Below, one piece after another: positions 53,146 to 62,498 of a DNA stretch of 64,000 bases. The DNA lies in the NCBI GenBank assembly GCA_016786585.1, contig JAEUUI010000008.1, forward strand, positions 372,001 through 436,000. Reading direction: 5' to 3'. The notes beneath the pieces were generated by a model. That model did no database searches. It was not told the origin of the DNA and was given only the letters and a program-made list of their open reading frames with translations. Origin of the DNA: Cyclobacteriaceae bacterium (lineage in GTDB: Bacteria > Bacteroidota > Bacteroidia > Cytophagales > Cyclobacteriaceae). The translations under genes were made by a program, and so were the position numbers. How positions within the stretch are numbered: position 1 is the first letter of the stretch; each line of letters opens with the position of its first letter.

Positions 53146-53601
53146 TTAACGCTGGACGTTCACCACTGCGGTCATGGTTACGTTAGCTTTAACCGAATTT
53201 GAGATCAGGCAGTTAGCCTCCGATTTTTGCAAAACCCGGAGTGCGCGGTCGCGGTCTTTCTCATCGCGAATCGTTACAACCGGTTCAAGCATAACTTCCG
53301 ACATCATGAATTTGCCCTCAATCTGTTCTAGCTTTCCTTTCGCTCCGCATTCAAACGAGATGAAATCCAGTTTTGAATTTTCCGCTACCGCGAGAAAGGT
53401 TGTCATCAGGCAACTGCTTACCGCTGCTGTGAACAAATGTTCCGGCGACCAGATGCCCGGCATACCTTTCGGGAACTCCGGCGGCGTGGCTACCTCAATA
53501 CACCCATCGCCCGCATTAACGTTCTTCAATTCAGGTGAACACATAATGCCTTTGCGATCGTTACGCCAGGCGATGTTAACAGTGTAAAGATGAGCATCCA
53601 T
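53146..53601 (-). CDS. OsmC-family peroxidase-like protein
   Basis: A 151-residue OsmC/Ohr-type protein that reduces organic peroxides or related thiol-reactive compounds. The two redox cysteines are visible: Cys in FTAAVSSCLMTTFLAVA and Cys in KSEANCLISNSVKANV. The Glu/Arg environment (PEFPKGMPGIWSPEHLF) matches the SaOsmC-like group. It is 10 bp downstream of the rhodanese gene and third in the operon driven from the promoter at 54168-54211, which suggests a sulfur or thiol-stress function rather than classical osmotic control. Confidence 0.93.
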   Translation of the reverse strand: MDAHLYTVNIAWRNDRKGIMCSPELKNVNAGDGCIEVATPPEFPKGMPGIWSPEHLFTAAVSSCLMTTFLAVAENSKLDFISFECGAKGKLEQIEGKFMMSEVMLEPVVTIRDEKDRDRALRVLQKSEANCLISNSVKANVTMTAVVNVQR

Positions 53602-53611
53602 AGTGTGAAAT

Positions 53612-53923
53612 TTAGATTTTGTTCGTCAGGCTGATCCAGCCACCGCCATTATAAACAGCCTGGTATCCGTTGCCGGTCAGCAATGTCTTGGCCATGCCGC
53701 TGCGCATTCCGGAAGCACAGCACGTAATGATCGGTTTATTTTTATCAGGCAACCGGCTGAGATTATTCTTCAATTGATCTACCGGAATGTTGATCGATCC
53801 CTTGATGTGACCACCACTGTATTCGCCTTTTGAGCGAACATCCAGGATAATTGCACCGTCTTTTACAAGTTGAGCGTAGTCAACCGATTTAATGCCGAGC
53901 ATTCTTTTAATTACATCGATCAT
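53612..53923 (-). CDS. rhodanese-like sulfurtransferase (1)
   Basis: A 103-residue single-domain rhodanese. The catalytic Cys is in IITCCASGMRSGMAKTLL (C-x5-R loop), with the preceding DVRSKGEYSGGHIKGSINIP block. The ATG at 53923 (MIDVIKRMLGIKSVDYAQLV) was chosen; the longer frame from 54214 is non-coding in the region it adds. It directly follows a DUF2892 gene, 8 bp apart, reproducing the two halves of the E. coli YgaP fusion as separate genes. It is followed by osmC, 10 bp apart. Confidence 0.93.
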   Translation of the reverse strand: MIDVIKRMLGIKSVDYAQLVKDGAIILDVRSKGEYSGGHIKGSINIPVDQLKNNLSRLPDKNKPIITCCASGMRSGMAKTLLTGNGYQAVYNGGGWISLTNKI

Positions 53924-53931
53924 GCAGAAAG

Positions 53932-54150
53932 TTATTTTTTGTCGGTAAGTTTTTTGCGAAGCGTATTCAGCCCGAAAGGCAGATAAAGAGGGCAGAAGCT
54001 GATGAGACTGGTAAGCAGAAATATAACCGATGCAACAATCAGAATAATTCCAAGTGTACCGGTTATTGTTCCTGTGGCATACAAGGCAATCATTGCAAGG
54101 GCCAAAATAGTGCGGATTACGCGATCGGCAGTTCCCATGTTCTTTTTCAT
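53932..54150 (-). CDS. DUF2892 (YgaP-like) membrane protein (1)
   Basis: A 72-residue protein with two membrane helices (RTILALAMIALYATGTITG and LGIILIVASVIFLLTSLISF), then a family-specific CPLYLPFGLNTLRKKL tail. The opening MKKNMGTADRVIRTILAL is the usual DUF2892 start. In E. coli the same module is fused after a rhodanese (YgaP). It is the first gene of the DUF2892-rhodanese-osmC operon, whose predicted promoter and GTGAC-type box lie directly upstream at 54168-54211. Confidence 0.88.
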   Translation of the reverse strand: MKKNMGTADRVIRTILALAMIALYATGTITGTLGIILIVASVIFLLTSLISFCPLYLPFGLNTLRKKLTDKK

Positions 54151-54167: not shown

Positions 54168-54211
54168 TAAAGTTGAATCTGGCGGCTCCGATATTCTGTA
54201 ACCAAAGTCAC
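54168..54211 (-). promoter_or_regulatory. promoter and Crp-type box of the DUF2892-rhodanese-osmC operon
   Basis: On the minus strand, GTGAC-TTTG-GTTAC (54198-54211) is a one-mismatch version of the GTGAC-N4-GTCAC box. Its centre lies exactly 33 bp upstream of the centre of CAACTTTA (54168-54175), a one-base variant of the -7 element used at 61614. The box is thus at about -40, the usual activator position. The first gene starts at 54150. Confidence 0.6.
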
Positions 54212-54294
54212 CAATGTCAGAAATAGATCGTTAACAAAGCTAACCCTTCGTTTTTTGAGCGATCCTGATGAAAATCAGGCTTGAATTTGACTTT

Positions 54295-54492
54295 TCAGCA
54301 ACTTTCGCCCTCTTCAACTCCTGCCTTTTCGAGGATTGTTTCCAGCGGACAAAATCTTGTAATCGATGATTGTAACAGGTTAACGGCAACGAAAGCCGCC
54401 ACGAGAAGCCAGGCTATGTCGATAAAATAAGCCAGTAAGATGCTTGTCAGAACCAGCGTTCCCGCAACTCCTCTGATAATTCGTTCTCTCAT
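54295..54492 (-). CDS. DUF2892 (YgaP-like) membrane protein (2)
   Basis: A 65-residue protein with two helices (GTLVLTSILLAYFIDIAWLL, then VAAFVAVNLLQSSI) and the DUF2892 end FCPLETILEKAGVEEGESC, including Cys residues at both the FCP motif and the C-terminus. It starts 3 bp after the stop codon of the 49-residue gene, so it appears to be the last gene of the tolC-RND efflux operon. The 143-bp gap to the next operon contains a small GAAA-loop hairpin (54264-54279) and the promoter described above. Confidence 0.85.
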   Translation of the reverse strand: MRERIIRGVAGTLVLTSILLAYFIDIAWLLVAAFVAVNLLQSSITRFCPLETILEKAGVEEGESC

Positions 54493-54495
54493 ATT

Positions 54496-54645
54496 TTATG
54501 TTGTTTGGGTGTATTTCCTTCGATAGAATTTTTTACGGCAGAATGCCGTTTGTTTTTGCTCATGGCAAACTTCATCAAGTACACGTTGAGCACGATTGAA
54601 CAACAGGATGTACTGCTCTGCATTGATTTGTTGTTGATTCGTCAT
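54496..54645 (-). CDS. small protein, 49 residues, coupled to the PII-like gene
   Basis: A 49-residue frame not found by length cut-offs: ATG at 54645 overlaps the stop of the PII-like gene (ATGA), stop TAA at 54496. The sequence starts MTNQQQINAEQYILLFNRAQ and ends with a basic tail (FCRKKFYRRKYTQTT). It is helical at the N-terminus, with two Cys residues. Coupled start and 3-bp spacing to the next gene argue for a real gene; no family is recognised. Confidence 0.5.
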   Translation of the reverse strand: MTNQQQINAEQYILLFNRAQRVLDEVCHEQKQTAFCRKKFYRRKYTQTT

Positions 54646-54956
54646 ACTTCATTGCTTGATTTTTCAACCGGTAACATAAAAGCCCGTATGGGGAACCCGG
54701 TTGCCTGTGCATCGTTGTAATCGCGGATCAATTGCAGGGCACGGGTAGCATTCAACTCGGTGGTGAAGCTGAACAGAAAGACAGAATTATACTCATCCCG
54801 TGAATGCGCAAACCAGCTGGTGAGCAAGTTTTCATCGCGGGTGTTTTTGAATCCTGTAGTTTCTGTTGCACTGAATACCGTGATGCCAGCCTGTTCCAAT
54901 ATCCTGGCAACGTCCGCCTGATGTTCCTTCAGGCTGGTAACAAATAGAAGTTTCAT
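54642..54956 (-). CDS. PII-like alpha/beta protein of the efflux operon
   Basis: A 104-residue soluble protein with a ferredoxin-like layout: strand MKLLFVTSLKEHQADVARI, helix, strand ITVFSATETTG, then SVFLFSFTTELNATRALQLI and a final strand FPIRAFMLPVEK. Such PII-like proteins commonly sit next to RND or cation transporters and may sense small ligands, but ligand residues are not obvious here. Its start overlaps the RND stop (ATGA) and its own stop overlaps the 49-residue gene, so translation of the three is coupled. Confidence 0.65.
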   Translation of the reverse strand: MKLLFVTSLKEHQADVARILEQAGITVFSATETTGFKNTRDENLLTSWFAHSRDEYNSVFLFSFTTELNATRALQLIRDYNDAQATGFPIRAFMLPVEKSSNEV

Positions 54957-57900
54957 GGCTTAGAGTTTGTTTTTTGATTACGCATCATTCTGAAATAGAT
55001 CAAGGGTACCACCAGCAGGGTCAGGAATGTGGATGTAATAGTTCCGCCCATCAGTGAGATGGCAAGACCCTGGAAGATTGGATCGAACAGAATAATCACG
55101 GCACCTAATACCACAGCGCCTGCTGTTAACAGAATAGGAGTGGTGCGTACGGCGCCTGCTTCAATAATTGCCTGCTTGATCGGAATACCTTCCTCAAGAC
55201 GAATGTTAATAAAGTCGATCAGCAAAACAGAGTTTCGTACCATCACCCCGGCCAATGCAATAAACCCGATCATGGAGGTGGCGGTAAAGTATGCACCGAG
55301 CATCCAATGGCCGAGAACAATTCCAATCAGCGAAAGCGGAATTGCGGCAAGCATGACAATAGGAACACTGAAATTTTGGAACCACCCTACGATGAGAATG
55401 TAGATCAGCACAATCACCACCGCAAAGGCAATTCCGAGATCGCGAAAAACTTCATACGTTATTTGCCATTCTCCATCCCATTTTAGCGTAAAGTTGTCTT
55501 CAAACTCGGGTTGATGATTAAATGATTCTTCGAGTGTATATCCTGCTGGCAAGGAAATCTCTTTCAGCCTGTCTGATATATCAAAGATTGCGTAAGCCGG
55601 GCTCTCCAGATCTCCGGCCAGGTCGGCCAAAACAAATACAACGCGTTTTTGATTTTTGCGATAGATGCTTTTCTCCTTAATGCCTTTGTGGATTGTTACC
55701 AAATCGCCAACAGCCACCGGGTTACCGAGCCTATTCATCACATGCACATTCCGCAATTCCCCGAGGGTCGATTTTTCATCATCACTCAGCCGCAGTACAA
55801 TATTTATCGGGTCAAAAGACACCGGATTATGAAGGATGCCTGCTGGCATATTCGATAGCGCAGCCTGAAGTACAGCCGTTACCTGCGCAGGAGCAACGCC
55901 CAGGCGCAGTGCTTTATCTTTGTCAATTTCAAATGTATACTCGGTTTGATCGGCTTCTGCCATCCAGTCGACATCAACTACACCTTCAGTTTTGGCAATG
56001 AGTGTTTTTACCTGATCGGCAATGGCCAGCTGCTGCTGATAGTCCGGTCCGTAAATTTCAGCTACCAGCGTTGAAAGCACGGGTGGTCCCGGTGGGACTT
56101 CTACCAGCTTTACATTTGCATGGTATTTTGTAGCAATCTCCTGAATGCGGGGTCGTAACTGCTTGGCGATGTCGTGACTTTGCAGACTCCTGTCTTTTTT
56201 ATGAACAAGATTAACCTGAATGTCGGCAACATGTTCACCGGAACGCAGATCATAGTGCCTTACGAGGCCATTGAAACTGATGGGGCCTGCAGTACCTACG
56301 TAGCCTTGGTAATTGCGAATCAAAGCCTGTGTTGCCAGGTATTGTGATATCTCGCGTGTAACGACTGCCGTACGTTCGAGAGAAGTACCTTCGGGCATGT
56401 CGATCACTACCTGGAGTTCATTTTTGTTGTCGAACGGAAGCATTTTTACTGCCACCCACTTGGTATAGAAAAATGATACGGAGATCAGCAGAATGACAAC
56501 CGTTCCGAGAATAAATGTCCAGCGCTTCCAGCGAGTTTCAAGCATCGGGTTGATAAAGGCTTTATAGATTTTATAAATCTTCGATTCTTCCAGGGTGGGA
56601 TGACCTTTTTCACCGTGTGATTCTTTTTCCCGCAGAAAGAGATATCCCAGGTAGGGGGTAAGCGTGAGCGCAACAACAAGCGAAAGCAACATGGCAATAC
56701 TTGCACCAATCGGCATGGGACTCATGTATGGACCCATCATTCCGGAAACAAAAGCCATCGGAAGCACTGCTGCGATAACGGTAAACGTAGCGAGTATGGT
56801 TGGATTGCCAACTTCATTGATTGCAAATATGGCAGCTTGTAAAAACGGTAACCGTTTCATTCTAAAATGGCGGTGCATGTTTTCAGCAATGATGATTGAA
56901 TCATCCACCACGATACCTGTAATGAAAACCAGGGCGAATAGCGTAATGCGGTTAAGCGTATAATCGAGAAAATAGTAACTGAACAACGTTAGTGCGAACG
57001 TAACCGGGACGGAAAGGAACACAACGAGCCCTCCGCGCCACCCCATGGCAAGCATCACGAACGCAGTTACCGCCAGGATTGCCACAAATAGATGAAGCAG
57101 GAGCTCCGATACTTTTTCTGATGCTGTTTCACCATAATTACGTGTTTCTGAAACCTGTACCTCGGCCGGAATAATTTCTGTTTTCAGATGTTCAACTTTC
57201 TCGAGAATCCGGCGCGAAAGTTTCATAGCGTCAGCACCTTTCTTCTTGGCGATTGATAGTGTCACAGCAGGATATTCAGAAGGAAAGTCGTTGTGTCTGC
57301 CATCTTCTTTACCATATCCAAAGAATACGTATTGAACAGGGGTTTCCGGACCATCTTCCACCTGGGCAATTTGTTTCAGGTACACGGGTTGATCGTTGTT
57401 AGCGCCCACAATTGCATCACTTAAATCTTCAGATGATGCGAAGTAGCTTCCGGTCTCTACCGAGAAGGCCGAATCCCTGGAAATGAAACGTCCTGCATGC
57501 AGTTGTGCATTGCCGCCTTGCAGTTGCTCATAGATCGAAAGAAAGTCGACATGATTTTGAGTCATTTTATTCTTGTCAAGCGTAACACTAACCTGCCTGC
57601 TTCGGCCTCCGATGATGCTGACGGTCGCCACATCGGGAATTTTCTTAATCTCGTTGGTAAGCGTTTGCCCGAGTTGCTTCAAATCGTAGTCATTATAAAC
57701 TCCGCTCCACAAGGTTAGTCCGAGAACAGGCACGTCATCGATAGCGCGTGTTTTCACCAAAGGCATCATCACCCCGGCTGGCATCTTGTCCATATTTTTC
57801 ATCAGCTCGTTATAGAGCTTCACCAGCGATCGTTCAATATCTTCTCCAACATAGAATTGTACGATAATCATCGCCTGACCCTGCAGGGAGGTTGAGTATA

Positions 57901-58153
57901 CATATTCAACACCCTTAATGTTTGAGATGATTTTCTCCAGCGGTTGCGATACGCGGGCTTCTACTTCTTTTGGTGATGCGCCCGGATACCGAAGGAAGAT
58001 GTCGGCCATGGGTACATCAATTTGGGGTTCTTCTTCGCGCGGAATGAGCAGCGTGCTGTACCCGCCAATCAGCAGGAAGCCAATCATTAGCAGGATCGTA
58101 AGCTTTGAGTTGATGAATGCTTTTGCAATATTTCCTGACAAACCTTCTTTCAT
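54953..58153 (-). CDS. RND efflux transporter permease
   Basis: A 1066-residue inner-membrane pump of the AcrB/HAE1 class. Twelve helices are present; the first helix is ILLMIGFLLIGGYSTLLIP, and the two large periplasmic loops follow helices 1 and 7. The proton-relay helix carries DD in LFALVFITGIVVDDSIIIAE, and helix 10-11 contains GVMVRNSVLLIDFINIRLEE. Late block VRTTPILLTAGAVVLGA is typical. The RND/MFP/TolC set exports drugs, metals or metabolites; the substrate cannot be told from the sequence. It is third in the operon that starts with the TolC gene. Confidence 0.96.
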   Translation of the reverse strand: MKEGLSGNIAKAFINSKLTILLMIGFLLIGGYSTLLIPREEEPQIDVPMADIFLRYPGASPKEVEARVSQPLEKIISNIKGVEYVYSTSLQGQAMIIVQFYVGEDIERSLVKLYNELMKNMDKMPAGVMMPLVKTRAIDDVPVLGLTLWSGVYNDYDLKQLGQTLTNEIKKIPDVATVSIIGGRSRQVSVTLDKNKMTQNHVDFLSIYEQLQGGNAQLHAGRFISRDSAFSVETGSYFASSEDLSDAIVGANNDQPVYLKQIAQVEDGPETPVQYVFFGYGKEDGRHNDFPSEYPAVTLSIAKKKGADAMKLSRRILEKVEHLKTEIIPAEVQVSETRNYGETASEKVSELLLHLFVAILAVTAFVMLAMGWRGGLVVFLSVPVTFALTLFSYYFLDYTLNRITLFALVFITGIVVDDSIIIAENMHRHFRMKRLPFLQAAIFAINEVGNPTILATFTVIAAVLPMAFVSGMMGPYMSPMPIGASIAMLLSLVVALTLTPYLGYLFLREKESHGEKGHPTLEESKIYKIYKAFINPMLETRWKRWTFILGTVVILLISVSFFYTKWVAVKMLPFDNKNELQVVIDMPEGTSLERTAVVTREISQYLATQALIRNYQGYVGTAGPISFNGLVRHYDLRSGEHVADIQVNLVHKKDRSLQSHDIAKQLRPRIQEIATKYHANVKLVEVPPGPPVLSTLVAEIYGPDYQQQLAIADQVKTLIAKTEGVVDVDWMAEADQTEYTFEIDKDKALRLGVAPAQVTAVLQAALSNMPAGILHNPVSFDPINIVLRLSDDEKSTLGELRNVHVMNRLGNPVAVGDLVTIHKGIKEKSIYRKNQKRVVFVLADLAGDLESPAYAIFDISDRLKEISLPAGYTLEESFNHQPEFEDNFTLKWDGEWQITYEVFRDLGIAFAVVIVLIYILIVGWFQNFSVPIVMLAAIPLSLIGIVLGHWMLGAYFTATSMIGFIALAGVMVRNSVLLIDFINIRLEEGIPIKQAIIEAGAVRTTPILLTAGAVVLGAVIILFDPIFQGLAISLMGGTITSTFLTLLVVPLIYFRMMRNQKTNSKP

Positions 58154-58177
58154 AATTCTTTCGTTATTGATTAAAGG

Positions 58178-59257
58178 TTAGTTCGTTTTTGGGTGCACCG
58201 GAACACCATTATAAAGTTTACTGTCGGCCTTCAGGATAAATTTCTCCTGTCCGCTAAGCCCCGAGAGAATTTCGATCTTTTCGTCATGTGTTTTTCCGGT
58301 CCGAACCCAGCGCAGCAAGGCCGTGTTGCTTTCGCTTACCGTGTAAACACCCACAAGCTGATCTTTGTAAACCAGGGCCGACACGGGAATGAGTGTTGTT
58401 TCGGCTGCCGTTACCGGGACGGCAAAAGCAACTGTTGCTGCCATACCGCCATAAAGATTCTTAGCTTCGGTCATCTGAAGCGCAACCTTCACTCCATACC
58501 GTCCTCCGCTGTAACTTGAAGACGGACTGATCTCCGATACCTTACCGTTTAAACGTTGCCCGTTTGACTTTAGAAAGATGACTGCAGGCATTCCTACTGT
58601 CAGGCTGTTAACATCTGACTCCGCCACCGAAGTGGCTATTTCGAACGTTCCTTTTTTCTCCAGGATCAGCAACGGCATTCCGGGGTTGGCCATAGTTCCT
58701 TCGCTTGCCATCTTTTGTGTTATCACACCTTCGAACGGTGCTGTGATTCGGGTGTACGCGAGCATTGCTTCTGCCTCGCGTTGCATTTGTTTTGCGGCTT
58801 CTGCCTTCGCTTCAATGGAATGGTGGCGCAGTGTCATGTTTTCGAGTTCTTTCTGCGATGCGCTTTGCTGCTTATATAATTCCTGGTATCGGACCAGGTC
58901 TTTCTTCGCATCGGCAAGGGCAGCTTCTGCCTCGGAGACCATCGCTTCGGCTTGTGCTTTTTTAGCGAGGATGTCGTTGCTATTGACCGATATTAAAAGC
59001 TGTCCCTTTTTAACAGCTTCACCGGGTTTTACATGCACGGCCTGTATAAAGCCCATAACACGTGTGCTCAGTATTGCTGTTTCACTTGCACTTACCTGGC
59101 CGCTTGCAGTTATGCCCGTTGTCTTGCTTAAGACAGGAGTTGCCAACGTTACCGGCACCGAGGCTTGCGAATGTTGTTGAACAGGTTTCTCCTCAGAACA
59201 GGAAGCACCCCACACAGTGGTCAGAATTAAAGCGATATAGAAATGGTATGATTTCAT
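58178..59257 (-). CDS. RND efflux periplasmic adaptor (MFP) lipoprotein
   Basis: A 359-residue membrane-fusion protein. Its lipobox (TTVWGASCSEE) anchors it to the inner membrane. The biotinyl-lipoyl-like half reads SASETAILSTRVMGFIQAVH and PGEAVKKGQLLISVNSNDIL; then comes a long coiled-coil hairpin (about 95-160). The second lipoyl half reads RITAPFEGVITQKMASEGTM. It bridges the RND pump and the TolC-type channel. It follows the TolC gene by 9 bp and precedes the RND gene by 24 bp. Confidence 0.95.
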   Translation of the reverse strand: MKSYHFYIALILTTVWGASCSEEKPVQQHSQASVPVTLATPVLSKTTGITASGQVSASETAILSTRVMGFIQAVHVKPGEAVKKGQLLISVNSNDILAKKAQAEAMVSEAEAALADAKKDLVRYQELYKQQSASQKELENMTLRHHSIEAKAEAAKQMQREAEAMLAYTRITAPFEGVITQKMASEGTMANPGMPLLILEKKGTFEIATSVAESDVNSLTVGMPAVIFLKSNGQRLNGKVSEISPSSSYSGGRYGVKVALQMTEAKNLYGGMAATVAFAVPVTAAETTLIPVSALVYKDQLVGVYTVSESNTALLRWVRTGKTHDEKIEILSGLSGQEKFILKADSKLYNGVPVHPKTN

Positions 59258-59266
59258 AAATAATAG

Positions 59267-60574
59267 TTACAGATTTGTGGTAGCAGTTAAGAAATTCAGA
59301 TAGGCGCGTGTTACGGTCAGTTGAAAAACCGCCTGAGCATGGCCAAGCTTTTGTTGAGACACATTAGTCTGCGCTTGTAATAAGTCAGTTGTTGTGACAA
59401 GACCTTGTTCGTGACGGTTCTGTATCAACCGAAGTGCTTCCTGTGCATGCGCTGTTGTTAATGCTTGTTGATTAACCAAATTTTGCGCATCACGTTCCTG
59501 ACGTATAGTCTTGTCAAGTTCTAATTGCGCCTGTTCTTTTTGATAATGTAATTCCTGGGTGGCTTTGTCGCGTTCGATTCTCGCTGTCGCGATCTTGTTT
59601 TTGGTTGCGGTTCCGTTGAAAATTCTCCAGGATAGTTGCGCACCCACCAGGTAAGCGTTTGATCCGAAGCCAAAAGCTTCTGAATCGTTAAACATATATT
59701 CTCCGAATGCATTCAGTTTCGGAACATACGCCATCGTGCTGGACTTTACCACATTGTTGTGTGCCTCAACAACTGCGGCCATCGCGGCAAAGTCTGCCCG
59801 ATTTTCGGGAAGAACTGCGTCTGAAATCAACGGCAAGTCTTGATTGAGTGTATCTGTTGCGTAAATAACGCCAGGCGGTACACCCATTAAGAGACTTAGG
59901 TAATCGGAAGCATTTTTTACATTGCTTTTAGCTTCGTCAAGCTTGGTTTCCATATTTGCAACAAAAACTTTTACCTGGAGTACATCTGATTTCTGCAGAT
60001 ACCCCTGATCAAACCTATTTTGCGCAGCGGCAGATACGGCTTTAGCTGTAACAACAGCTTCTTCCATTACCGTTTCAGCCCGGTGCGCGAGTTGCAATTG
60101 TGCGTAGGCTTTTTCGACTTCTAAACCGATGTATTGTTTCGTTCGCTCATGTTTCAGTTGAAACGCTTCTGCTTGATTTCCTGCAGCTTCGCGCTGATAA
60201 ATCATATCCATATTGAAGATGGGTTGTAACAGTTCAACTTTAGTCATGAAATTTTGTGTTGCGGAAGGATCGTTGAGTAGGGCAGGATTAAAGTCGGTCT
60301 CGGTAATCGCCTGTTGCTGGAGTTTAAACCCGAATGCATTGAGCGGGTTGTTGGTGCTCAGCGCTGTATAACTCAGATTTATCTGAGGCAGGAACACCGC
60401 TTGTGTCTGTCTGACTTTTGCCTTTGAAACTTCGGCATCCAGTTGTGATAGTTTGATTGACCGATTTTGCTGCTGTGCGGCATTTAATGCCTCGTGTAGC
60501 GTGAGGGGTGTTGTCTGGGCGTTTGCCCAGGCAGGGATGAATAATATCAGAATACTTTTTATCAGGGTGTTCAT
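59267..60574 (-). CDS. TolC-family outer-membrane efflux channel
   Basis: A 435-residue exported protein (signal residues 1-19, ending AWANAQ). It has the TolC repeat of long helices and paired strands: TLHEALNAAQQQNRSIKLSQ, PQINLSYTALSTNNP, YLQKSDVLQVKVFVANMETK and LVTTTDLLQAQTNVSQQKLG. It is the first gene of the efflux operon. The promoter upstream has a perfect TAnnTTTG -7 element and a perfect GTGAC-N4-GTCAC box at 60624-60637. Confidence 0.95.
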   Translation of the reverse strand: MNTLIKSILILFIPAWANAQTTPLTLHEALNAAQQQNRSIKLSQLDAEVSKAKVRQTQAVFLPQINLSYTALSTNNPLNAFGFKLQQQAITETDFNPALLNDPSATQNFMTKVELLQPIFNMDMIYQREAAGNQAEAFQLKHERTKQYIGLEVEKAYAQLQLAHRAETVMEEAVVTAKAVSAAAQNRFDQGYLQKSDVLQVKVFVANMETKLDEAKSNVKNASDYLSLLMGVPPGVIYATDTLNQDLPLISDAVLPENRADFAAMAAVVEAHNNVVKSSTMAYVPKLNAFGEYMFNDSEAFGFGSNAYLVGAQLSWRIFNGTATKNKIATARIERDKATQELHYQKEQAQLELDKTIRQERDAQNLVNQQALTTAHAQEALRLIQNRHEQGLVTTTDLLQAQTNVSQQKLGHAQAVFQLTVTRAYLNFLTATTNL

Positions 60575-60593
60575 GTGCCGGAAATAATGTGCA

Positions 60594-60637
60594 CAAAAGT
60601 ATTAGCCATGGCAGGCTGATACTGTGACTACGGTCAC
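60594..60637 (-). promoter_or_regulatory. promoter and Crp-type box of the efflux operon
   Basis: On the minus strand, GTGAC-CGTA-GTCAC (60624-60637) is a perfect inverted repeat. TACTTTTG (60594-60601) fits the Bacteroidota -7 consensus TAnnTTTG. Their centres are exactly 33 bp apart, placing the box near -40, the class II activator position. The TolC gene starts at 60574, 20 bp after the -7 element. Confidence 0.75.
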
Positions 60638-60649
60638 GCTGATGAAAAA

Positions 60650-60681
60650 GAATAAAAAAAAGACAGTGGTTTCACTGTCTT
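60650..60681 (-). terminator. Rho-independent terminator of the rhodanese-DUF6132-DUF983 operon
   Basis: AAGACAGTG-gttt-CACTGTCTT forms a perfect 9-bp stem. Read on the minus strand it is followed by a run of eight T residues (60652-60659 on the plus strand are A). It lies 25 bp past the DUF983 stop codon and just upstream of the efflux operon promoter, insulating the two units. Confidence 0.85.
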
Positions 60682-60705
60682 GAAAAATATAACTCCTGAA
60701 TTTTA

Positions 60706-61086
60706 TTATCGCTTGTCAAAGGATGGATCGTAACGTACAAAAAAGTTGAGGTAAATTACACGTGATAGCCGCAGGGTAACGGGAAACAATCCGATAACCG
60801 CTGCGATGATGGAATACATATATACATCCATGTCCGGATCAAGGAGTACACGCAACGCCACATACACTGTAGTGAAAATCGCGACCTGCAGCGCATAGCT
60901 TACATACATCGCTCCGGAATAAAAAGACGGCTCAAGTTCGAAACGCTGACCGCAGTGACTGCACTTCTCCGGCATTTTCGTAAAGTTCTTCAGATCGTAC
61001 GCACCTGAAACGAATAACGGGCCGGTTTGACATCGCGGACAGGTTTGGTGCACGATGCTGAATAGTTTATTTCCTCTCGGAAGCAT
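60706..61086 (-). CDS. DUF983 membrane protein
   Basis: A 126-residue protein with an N-terminal zinc-ribbon-like part and two membrane helices. The Cys pairs are visible in HQTCPRCQTGPLF and EKCSHCGQRFELEPSFYSGA, both DUF983 hallmarks; helices lie at about 62-82 and 90-110. Function is unknown; family members are often near respiratory or sulfur genes. Its start overlaps the DUF6132 stop region by 20 bp, and a strong terminator follows. Confidence 0.92.
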   Translation of the reverse strand: MLPRGNKLFSIVHQTCPRCQTGPLFVSGAYDLKNFTKMPEKCSHCGQRFELEPSFYSGAMYVSYALQVAIFTTVYVALRVLLDPDMDVYMYSIIAAVIGLFPVTLRLSRVIYLNFFVRYDPSFDKR

Positions 61087-61273
61087 CGCGTTTGGATGTG
61101 AAAAGATTGGCAGTTAAAAGTCCCATCAAGCCACCATACAATGTGCTGTTGACAGGGGAGGATGTAATGGCGCAGGTTCCGGAGACACATCCTATATAGT
61201 TCCAATATTCATAGCCGGCCAAAGCGCCAATCAATATCCCTGCAGCCCACAAATACCATGTTTTCATTTTCAT
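61067..61273 (-). CDS. DUF6132-like small membrane protein
   Basis: A 68-residue protein with two helices (WYLWAAGILIGALAGYEYWN, then STLYGGLMGLLTANLF). A Cys-containing loop, GCVSGTCAITSSPVNSTLYG, is the DUF6132 hallmark and is often seen next to rhodaneses. The two Cys residues could take part in persulfide chemistry, by inference only. Start overlaps the rhodanese stop (ATGA) and its end overlaps the DUF983 start by 20 bp, so the three genes are tightly coupled. Confidence 0.88.
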   Translation of the reverse strand: MKMKTWYLWAAGILIGALAGYEYWNYIGCVSGTCAITSSPVNSTLYGGLMGLLTANLFTSKRDASERK

Positions 61274-61596
61274 GGTGTTACGATTTTTCCGGGCCAGGAA
61301 CTGATACCGCCAGCCAGATTAAGTACGGTAAATCCCGCATCCGCCATGCTCAGGCAAGCCTGCATGCTTCGGCCACCGCTGCGGCAGTAAACAAAATAAG
61401 TTTTTGATTTATCGAGTTCAGCAATTTCGTCATAAAAACTGTTGCTCATCACATCGATATTGATCGCATCGGGAATGAAGCCGGAATTAAACTCGCTTGA
61501 CGTTCGTACATCAAGCAACACTGCCTGGGGTGTGGTACTCAGCCGGGCCTGAAAATCGGCCGCAGTGAGGTTATCGTAATTGCCTATGTCTTCCAT
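61270..61596 (-). CDS. rhodanese-like sulfurtransferase (2)
   Basis: A 108-residue single-domain rhodanese. The catalytic Cys is in TYFVYCRSGGRSMQACLSMA (C-x4-R loop CRSGGRS); LLDVRTSSEFNSGFIPDAIN precedes it. It differs from the first rhodanese in having the CRSGGR loop, common in thiosulfate sulfurtransferases of the PspE/GlpE group. It is the first gene of its operon; the box and promoter lie between its start and the Crp-type gene, with the -7 element about 18 bp upstream of the start codon. Confidence 0.93.
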   Translation of the reverse strand: MEDIGNYDNLTAADFQARLSTTPQAVLLDVRTSSEFNSGFIPDAINIDVMSNSFYDEIAELDKSKTYFVYCRSGGRSMQACLSMADAGFTVLNLAGGISSWPGKIVTP

Positions 61597-61613
61597 GATT
61601 TTTGCTTTTTTTG

Positions 61614-61657
61614 CAAAGTTGTCCGGTGGACAACATGCGTACAGTGACTTTAGTCAC
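61614..61657 (-). promoter_or_regulatory. promoter and Crp-type box of the rhodanese operon
   Basis: On the minus strand, GTGAC-TAAA-GTCAC (61644-61657) is a perfect inverted repeat that overlaps the final stop base of the Crp-type gene. CAACTTTG (61614-61621) is the -7-like element; its centre is exactly 33 bp from the box centre, as at the efflux operon and the DUF2892 operon. The rhodanese start codon is at 61596. Confidence 0.75.
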
Positions 61658-62310
61658 TATGCCATGGTAATACGGATTATTTCATTTCGGGATACAGAAA
61701 TGACTTTTCTGGCCTCCAGTTTCTTAAGTAAGCGGGATATCACTTCGCGTGACGAATTCAGATCGTCAGCAATCTGCTGGTGGGTGATGGTAATCGTATT
61801 TGATTGTATGGAATCAAACTGGCGCCTCAGATAAAATTCAAGTTTTTCGTCCATCGACCGGAAAGCTACCTGATCAATCACCTCCAGCAGTTCCTCAAAG
61901 CGGCTGCGGTATGTTTCGAGCACAAAATAGTACCAGCTTTTGTAGTCTTTCATTAAACTGTCCATGTGCTGGATAGGTATCGCGAGTGCTTTAACCGGAG
62001 TTACGGCAATTGCCTTTACCGCACTGGCTTCGTTTTTTGTAGCACAGATCATTGATAATGCGCAAGCGTTTCCTTTTTCGAGAAAGTAAAGAAAGAATTC
62101 TTCACCGTCATCCCCTTCGCGATAAAGTTTAACACGGCCCTCCAGAATCAGCAGGGAGCTTTTAAAGTACTGCCCCGGGCGCATCATGTTTTCGCCTTCA
62201 GGGAATTCAACGACCTGCCCGATTTTTTCGAGATGGCTGATGAGTTCAGGGTTGAATGTGGGAAAAAGATCGTGAAGTGATGAATGGATGGCTGTGCTTT
62301 CTGTTGGCAT
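61657..62310 (-). CDS. Crp/Fnr-family transcriptional regulator
   Basis: A 217-residue regulator. Residues about 15-130 form the cyclic-nucleotide-binding-like barrel (VVEFPEGENMMRPGQYFKSS, LLILEGRVKLYREGDDGEEF), and a long dimer helix follows. The winged HTH is QQIADDLNSSREVISRLLKK; the recognition helix has R-E-x-x-x-R spacing as in CRP, which reads GTGA. The nucleotide pocket lacks the Arg-Ser pair of CRP, and no Fe-S cysteine quartet is present, so the signal is unknown. Start ATG 62310 (MPTESTAIHSSLHDLF) is preferred to 62370. It is adjacent to its likely targets. Confidence 0.93.
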   Translation of the reverse strand: MPTESTAIHSSLHDLFPTFNPELISHLEKIGQVVEFPEGENMMRPGQYFKSSLLILEGRVKLYREGDDGEEFFLYFLEKGNACALSMICATKNEASAVKAIAVTPVKALAIPIQHMDSLMKDYKSWYYFVLETYRSRFEELLEVIDQVAFRSMDEKLEFYLRRQFDSIQSNTITITHQQIADDLNSSREVISRLLKKLEARKVISVSRNEIIRITMA

Positions 62311-62498
62311 AAACGAATTTACGGAATGAATTTGATACGATTGCTGATACTTACCCGAACTTTGACCCATGGAACGCAGATTGAGGCTTCAATCCCGGGC
62401 GAAATGTTAAATATTTACTTGTGTAAGATTTTGATACAGTTTGTAACTGTTTTTCCATAGCGCTCCCGGTATCTTCATGGCGGCTTTAATTTACCCCT

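Follow-up and report, generated by a model that had tools for sequence, protein, structure and literature searches.

Three promoters in a 64,000-nucleotide stretch of a Cyclobacteriaceae genome (GenBank assembly GCA_016786585.1, contig JAEUUI010000008.1, positions 372,001 to 436,000; the whole stretch is called the window) carry a common Crp-type palindrome, GTGAC-N4-GTCAC. Do they form one regulon, which protein reads the box, and to what signal? From sequence comparison, the answer considered highly probable is that the Crp/Fnr-type protein encoded beside the boxes is a class-II-like activator of a sulfide and sulfane-sulfur detoxification regulon, with thiol-reactive sulfur probably acting via its residues C103 and C109. 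The promoter elements lie as follows, on the minus strand, which is the coding strand of all three downstream gene sets.

61644..61657, minus strand: Crp-type box GTGAC-N4-GTCAC, rhodanese promoter; perfect; kept at 33 bp in related loci L067 and L068.
61614..61621, minus strand: -7-like element CAACTTTG, rhodanese promoter; 33 bp from the box, centre to centre.
60624..60637, minus strand: Crp-type box, tolC-MFP-RND promoter; perfect; kept at 33 bp in L068.
60594..60601, minus strand: -7-like element TACTTTTG, tolC-MFP-RND promoter; 33 bp from the box.
54198..54211, minus strand: Crp-type box, promoter of the YgaP-like transmembrane protein (YgaP-TM), rhodanese and OsmC genes; reads GTGAC-N4-GTTAC (one mismatch); kept in L068 (33 bp) and in L067 (34 bp).
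54168..54175, minus strand: -7-like element CAACTTTA, YgaP-TM/rhodanese/OsmC promoter; 33 bp from the box.

The three boxes, two perfect and one with a single mismatch, had been reported in an earlier note on this DNA; a scan of the whole window reproduces them and returns no other box within one mismatch. The distance from box centre to -7-like element centre, also claimed there, measures exactly 33 bp in all three promoters. By itself the number of boxes is unremarkable: three in the window against 1.10 expected from shuffling, three being reached in 6 of 100 shuffles. Genome-wide, the pattern has 47 sites at up to one mismatch, fewer than the 89 of its reversed form. Perfect sites number only three in the 4.19 Mb genome, two of them in the window. 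The geometry, not the box count, is the remarkable feature. Among distances of 15–79 bp on either side, 33 bp on the minus strand is the sole one that gives [CT]AnnTTT[GA] at two or more of the three boxes; the chance estimate for the shared spacing, about 2e-7, is post hoc, the element pattern having been written to fit these promoters.

The same geometry is found in relatives. Eighty named Bacteroidota loci, the best 80 of 547 confirmed matches to an alignment of the regulator, hold together with the window 131 distinct boxes within one mismatch. AnnTTTG stands at exactly 33 bp from 86 of them (22/36 perfect boxes, 64/95 one-mismatch boxes) and at 34 bp from nine; elsewhere between 20 and 59 bp the mean does not exceed 0.2. 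Control boxes with reversed or scrambled half-sites have AnnTTTG at 33 bp in 0/70 cases, with single matches at 31, 32 and 34 bp among the distances printed, which bears out the claim that the geometry is hard to obtain by chance. When AnnTTT[GA] at 32–34 bp is allowed, promoter sites are present in 64 of the 80 loci, from 23 genus-level groups, and number 105 (95 at 33 bp, 10 at 34 bp). Chance clustering of boxes, which the counts alone would allow, is ruled out by the fixed spacing and the homologous promoters.

To avoid fetching loci through the regulator, homologues were searched first: genomes of the window's family were searched with the TolC protein and the 72-aa YgaP-TM protein, and the upstream regions were then read with spacings of 32–34 bp allowed. 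Seventeen of 19 TolC homologues have full flanks; the exact promoter precedes 7/17 and a promoter within two mismatches 13/17, the window's own included, and each of two control motifs gives, in the same 17, no exact site and one within two mismatches. YgaP-TM matches are present in 87 family genomes; of 30 loci obtained, 28 have full flanks, with the exact promoter in 9/28, a promoter within one mismatch in 19/28 (the window's own among the 19) and both control motifs in 0/28. Over the family, the exact pattern occurs in 81 of 148 genomes, at 147 places; the reversed pattern occurs at 10. The search for the box upstream of orthologues that the earlier note had proposed is thus positive, and in L068 all three promoters are recovered. 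This locus, one contig of a metagenome-assembled genome, is collinear with the window (crp-rhodanese-DUF6132-DUF983-tolC-MFP-RND-PII-like-YgaP-TM-YgaP-TM-rhodanese-osmC); box, 33-bp spacing and -7 element are kept at each promoter and the intervening bases have drifted. L067 retains the rhodanese and YgaP-TM promoters, at 33 and 34 bp respectively.

The Bacteroidota -7 element is TAnnTTTG. No conserved -33 element lies between box and -7 in the promoter sites of the related loci. A box near -40, a near-fixed spacing and the lack of a -33 element are consistent with class II activation, for which an activator site at a fixed distance and over the upstream promoter element is expected; the 33 bp found here and in relatives agrees with the class II position assigned to the box in the earlier note. 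In the mechanism proposed, a dimer of the regulator would occupy GTGAY-N4-RTCAC, centred near -40 relative to the transcription start; the box would replace the -33 element of Bacteroidota promoters, and the protein would therefore act on the -7 element as a class-II-like activator. A repressor might occupy the same place: a dimer over the -33 region would block polymerase until the signal releases it, as for BigR or CstR. The box does overlap the expected -33 position, and repressors such as CstR and BigR are among the known sulfur-responsive regulators described in the part of the source available (PMC7315123). Repression is nevertheless quite improbable: the spacing is as near-fixed (86/131 at 33 bp, almost none outside 33–34 bp) as contact between activator and polymerase would make it, and no -33 consensus stands between box and -7. 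The box, its spacing, the conserved promoters and the link of regulator to sulfur genes are supported by the comparison; we infer binding, activation rather than repression, the signal and the cargo of the pump.

The protein proposed to read the box is encoded directly beside the rhodanese promoter.

61657..62370, minus strand: Crp/Fnr-type regulator, 237 aa as called; Pfam PF00027, PF13545, PF00325; AlphaFold2 model.

A beta-roll domain of the cyclic-nucleotide-binding type and a Crp-type helix-turn-helix place the regulator in the Crp/Fnr superfamily. The AlphaFold2 model has a mean predicted local distance difference test (pLDDT) of 87 and CRP-like structural matches. A true start at Met21, near 62310, looks likelier than the called start, since the first 20 residues are of low confidence and absent from most relatives. 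The recognition helix is SREVISRLLKKLE. Orthology to CRP or FNR is not indicated: scores are 45.2 bits against a cut-off of 266 for the NCBIfam CRP model NF008732 and 22.2 bits against 228 for the FNR model NF008365, and only two cysteines are present. FNR, a [4Fe-4S] oxygen sensor, has four cluster-ligand cysteines. With Escherichia coli CRP at class II promoters, the regulator shares the Crp fold with its helix-turn-helix, an R-E-x-x-x-R helix, GTGA/TCAC half-sites and the position near -40; it differs in the conserved inner C/G of the box, two cysteines at the position of the cAMP cassette, a Bacteroidota -7 promoter and a sulfur regulon.

The genome has 16 cyclic-nucleotide-binding matches; seven of the 15 paralogues are close enough to align. 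All seven are without the cysteine pair and without the SREVISR recognition helix, and the second own-genome match of the profile search is one of them. Judged by these seven, no second member of the regulator's subfamily is seen in the genome, which favours the adjacent gene named as regulator in the earlier note. That the boxes instead serve an oxygen- or cAMP-responsive paralogue, the adjacent gene not being the main regulator, is very unlikely: eight of the 16 matches lie outside the comparison and the box core resembles the E. coli CRP half-site, but the compared paralogues do not have the helix, and the promoter sites are found in 64 of 80 loci that carry this subfamily. In two genomes of the same genus a close orthologue is absent, and each has a single distant member.

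The genes that follow the three promoters are as follows.

61270..61596, minus strand: single-domain rhodanese; PF00581.
61067..61273, minus strand: DUF6132 small protein; PF19628.
60706..61086, minus strand: DUF983 protein; PF06170.
59267..60574, minus strand: TolC-family outer-membrane efflux protein; PF02321.
58178..59257, minus strand: RND periplasmic adaptor; TIGR01730 above cut-off.
54953..58153, minus strand: RND permease; no NCBIfam model attains its cut-off.
54642..54956, minus strand: PII-like protein, 104 aa; predicted structure, no Pfam or NCBIfam match.
54295..54492, minus strand: YgaP-like transmembrane protein (DUF2892 type), 65 aa; PF11127.
53932..54150, minus strand: YgaP-like transmembrane protein (DUF2892 type), 72 aa; PF11127.
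53612..53923, minus strand: single-domain rhodanese; PF00581, matched on the frame given as 53612–53926.
53146..53601, minus strand: OsmC-family protein; PF02566.

The unit given earlier as tolC-MFP-RND-PII-like-49 aa-DUF2892 keeps its order in L068 except for the 49-aa reading frame (54496–54645). No homologue of this frame occurs among the related loci compared, and in L068 the PII-like and YgaP-TM genes are about 25 bases apart, which leaves no room for it; on this comparison it should be dropped from the operon. The regulon in the window would comprise two rhodaneses, two YgaP-TM proteins, OsmC, and the TolC-RND pump with the PII-like protein.

Elsewhere in the genome it would include two further proteins, one an SQR-like oxidoreductase, the other an MBL-fold/rhodanese protein of the persulfide dioxygenase (PDO) type. 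Nine own-genome promoter sites lie within one mismatch: three in the window, one before the SQR-like gene (400 aa, contig C9), one before the PDO-like gene (473 aa, contig C30), and four others. The sites before the SQR-like and PDO-like genes each carry one mismatch. The PDO-like gene has a second upstream site 34 bp further on, with two mismatches. Of the four others, C9:171147, C9:317624 and C16:256136 (L150, L152, L153) lie inside reading frames as called, and C16:264914 (L154) overlaps a gene start. Both YgaP-TM matches of the genome are within the window. Rhodanese gives 11 matches in 8 genes; every site at four other rhodanese loci (L285, L286, L290, L292) has at least three mismatches, and the gene at C7:238988 is outside the comparison.

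In relatives the regulator is accompanied by genes for TauE, an MBL-fold protein with rhodanese domains, rhodaneses, YeeE/YedE-type proteins, SulP and cytochrome bd. A sulfur-type gene (rhodanese, PDO, TauE, YeeE/YedE, SulP, SQR, YgaP-TM or cytochrome bd subunit I) lies at most 4.5 kb from the regulator in 74 of the 80 named loci and for 43/59 more distant family members (L384, which has no regulator, left out). The first genes after the 105 promoter sites belong to a rhodanese-type cluster (61), a TauE cluster (27), TolC (4), crp itself (3) and others (ten); simple gene calling credits the window's YgaP-TM site to a long frame extending out of the rhodanese through the YgaP-TM gene, and this site is therefore counted within the 61. 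For the 147 places in family genomes, 70 loci with 73 sites were obtained, 67 of them with an assigned first gene (25 of 41 families listed). The first genes bear OprD (11), rhodanese (10), YgaP-TM (9), AhpC-TSA (7), thioredoxin (6), MBL-fold (5) or TolC (5) domains, and one protein can bear several. The sulfane-sulfur role suggested earlier is favoured by these partner genes and by the boxes before the SQR-like and PDO-like genes.

The only cysteines of the regulator, C103 and C109, lie within G-x-x-C-A-x-S-x-x-C. In the profile alignment this motif falls, with an indel, at the cAMP-binding cassette of CRP, placed by what are presumed to be the cassette residues. Both cysteines are invariant in 80/80 sequences (79 of the 80 loci plus the window; truncated L140 left out). 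In a wider set (n = 47) C103 is kept in 47/47 and C109 in at least 90%; C109 is missing in several distant members. The probable signal is persulfide or other thiol-reactive sulfur, which would modify C103 and C109. Provided that the regulator works as described, persulfide or polysulfide is the leading candidate on account of the cysteine pair and the gene content, and is held to be slightly better than an even bet.

Its main rival keeps regulator, box and genes and takes the cysteine pair as a general thiol-redox switch (disulfide, peroxide, electrophile), the sulfur genes being part of a wider thiol-stress response. OsmC in the window agrees with this, as do the AhpC-TSA-type (7/67) and thioredoxin (6/67) first genes in family genomes, perhaps partly the same proteins, and so does the precedent of CprK, a Crp/Fnr member with redox-active cysteines. 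CprK has the pair Cys105/Cys111, similar in spacing to C103/C109, and governs dehalorespiration; PDB 3e5u, which is taken to be CprK, is a weak profile match to the regulator (32.6 bits). The general switch is nonetheless the less probable of the two and rather doubtful, since the commonest partners of the subfamily are genes of sulfide and sulfane sulfur (TauE-type near 63/80 and PDO-type near 46/80 regulators). Sensing of persulfide or polysulfide is thus preferred. The best PDB sequence match to the regulator, the Crp/Fnr-family entry 3dv8 (E 4e-38), also has a C-x-L-S-x-x-C stretch, and the cysteine motif may extend beyond this subfamily. Neither 3dv8 nor 3e5u is among the 50 structural matches listed for the regulator model, which has no bearing on the fold.

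Among known regulators of such genes, FisR activates together with sigma-54, and BigR and CstR act as repressors; these belong to other families, and none of the three is of the Crp/Fnr type. In the part of the source available, Acinetobacter baumannii has PDO, SQR and TauE under FisR, yeeE-yedE-pdo2 under BigR, and cydAB induced by sulfide (PMC7315123); the gene content here matches this known response, with a regulator of a different kind, and likewise resembles that of the sulfide- or persulfide-responsive FisR, BigR/SqrR and CstR systems. The same part describes A1S_1182, a Crp-family protein highly persulfidated under sulfide (PMC7315123); it is close to E. coli CRP and Vfr and is not linked there to a sulfur regulon or a paired-cysteine cassette. 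A Halomonas paper containing both 'FNR family' and 'persulfide' has no such regulator in the part available (PMC8014003). No Crp/Fnr-type sulfane-sulfur regulator of Bacteroidota and no named regulator for Bacteroidota PDO/TauE/rhodanese clusters was found in the literature, the coverage being weak (few subscription journals; the spelling 'Crp/Fnr' may be missed). Such clusters are common beside the regulator in the loci compared. A named regulator with its box and promoter geometry would open the phylum's sulfide response to direct test; it would also offer a promoter rule for target prediction, candidate new chemistry in the Crp/Fnr fold, and an RND pump with a PII-like partner tied to sulfur stress.

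Variation of box and helix bears on contact between the two. Residue E209 comes directly after the conserved R208 in the recognition helix. In the first locus set, 86 GTGAC and 2 GTAAC boxes belong to loci with E at this position, 1 and 8 to loci with V; once L199 and L208, which are mixed, are set aside, the figures are 85 and 1 for E, 0 and 7 for V. Forty further loci (39 with a member) give 11 and 1 for E, 0 and 15 for V; this set is not blind, being chosen by regulator place, and most of its GTGAC promoters were already known, the 15 GTAAC boxes being new. Counted by genome, exact GTGAC and GTAAC promoters number 54 and 7 in the 30 genomes that supplied the first 30 Crp loci (fetched member E-type), and 21 and 63 in 34 genomes where a V-type member is seen; the two sets share G121, and an E-type member is present as well in many of the 34. 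Background is higher for the GTAAC pattern (93 places, its reversed control 36). In E. coli CAP, Glu181-to-Val alters preference at that base pair, and by analogy the direction of change agrees. The tendency supports contact of this subfamily with this box, and is not proof.

Taken more widely, the subfamily might be a Bacteroidota-wide one in which the cyclic-nucleotide pocket has turned into a two-cysteine persulfide sensor, serving as the phylum's main switch for oxidising sulfide, handling sulfane sulfur and the RND export that goes with them, with one clade moved to a GTAAC box along with the Glu-to-Val helix change. That clade would be a natural counterpart of the classic CAP Glu181 specificity mutants. 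This extension is given somewhat less than an even chance.

Several points weigh against the sulfur regulon as described. The 80 loci were selected by similarity to the regulator, and many of them are closely related (Flavobacterium accounts for 23 of the 64 that bear a promoter); the counts for box and spacing are thereby inflated. In 198 kb of own-genome background the sulfur-gene queries give no match, which counts for the link of regulator to sulfur genes; this background, however, is not quite neutral, as L003, L151, L154, L155 and the window's own sites are omitted and the SQR-like and PDO-like genes are not in it. The SQR-like protein attains 113.6 bits, its best NCBIfam score, against a cut-off of 525, and its name is provisional. 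At two mismatches own-genome sites are close to the control (53 against 46), and a genome-wide regulon at that level was rejected as noise. Eleven of the 67 first genes in family genomes are of the OprD type, without an obvious sulfur link, so some members of the regulator family would govern other things. The covariation of helix and box amounts to one independent comparison on the tree; G065 and G122 each have a single V-type member with GTGAC promoters, and in G033 an E-type helix occurs close to a GTAAC box. As statistical proof the covariation was rejected, with one independent pair and these three genomes breaking a strict rule.

OprD-type porin genes follow the same promoter pattern in L217–L227 and at others of the 67 sites, often with GTGATAAATGTCAC, hinting at a second regulon under a related regulator. 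In L052 and L061, regulator family members adjoin the gene for cytochrome bd subunit I; the box there has its -7-like element at 32 bp, and a tie to sulfide-resistant respiration is suggested.

The 104-aa protein (54642–54956) is predicted to have the PII ferredoxin-like fold: its AlphaFold2 model has a pLDDT of 82, the best Foldseek match is GlnK (6yc7, E 4e-5), and the 50 structural matches listed are PII or PII-like by description, apart from the TT1020 entries, presumably also PII. A PII-like protein of this kind also stands directly after the RND permease in L068, L069, L082, L209 and L365.

The third perfect box of the genome (G000:C16:181896; L003, L046) lies between a universal-stress-protein (Usp) gene and an OB-fold-type gene and has no -7 element at 33 bp. 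Promoters of sigma-70 consensus type give no evidence in the region (17 seen, 14.6 expected). Two further features lie beside the promoters.

54265..54278, minus strand: palindrome CTGAT-N4-ATCAG, 67 bp upstream of the YgaP-TM promoter box; conserved in L067 and L068.
60660..60681, minus strand: hairpin resembling an intrinsic terminator, with a T run; separates the rhodanese unit (DUF983) from the tolC promoter; similar stretch in L068.

The palindrome is a candidate second weak site or hairpin. Terminator-like hairpins number 16 in the region against 9.9 in shuffles.

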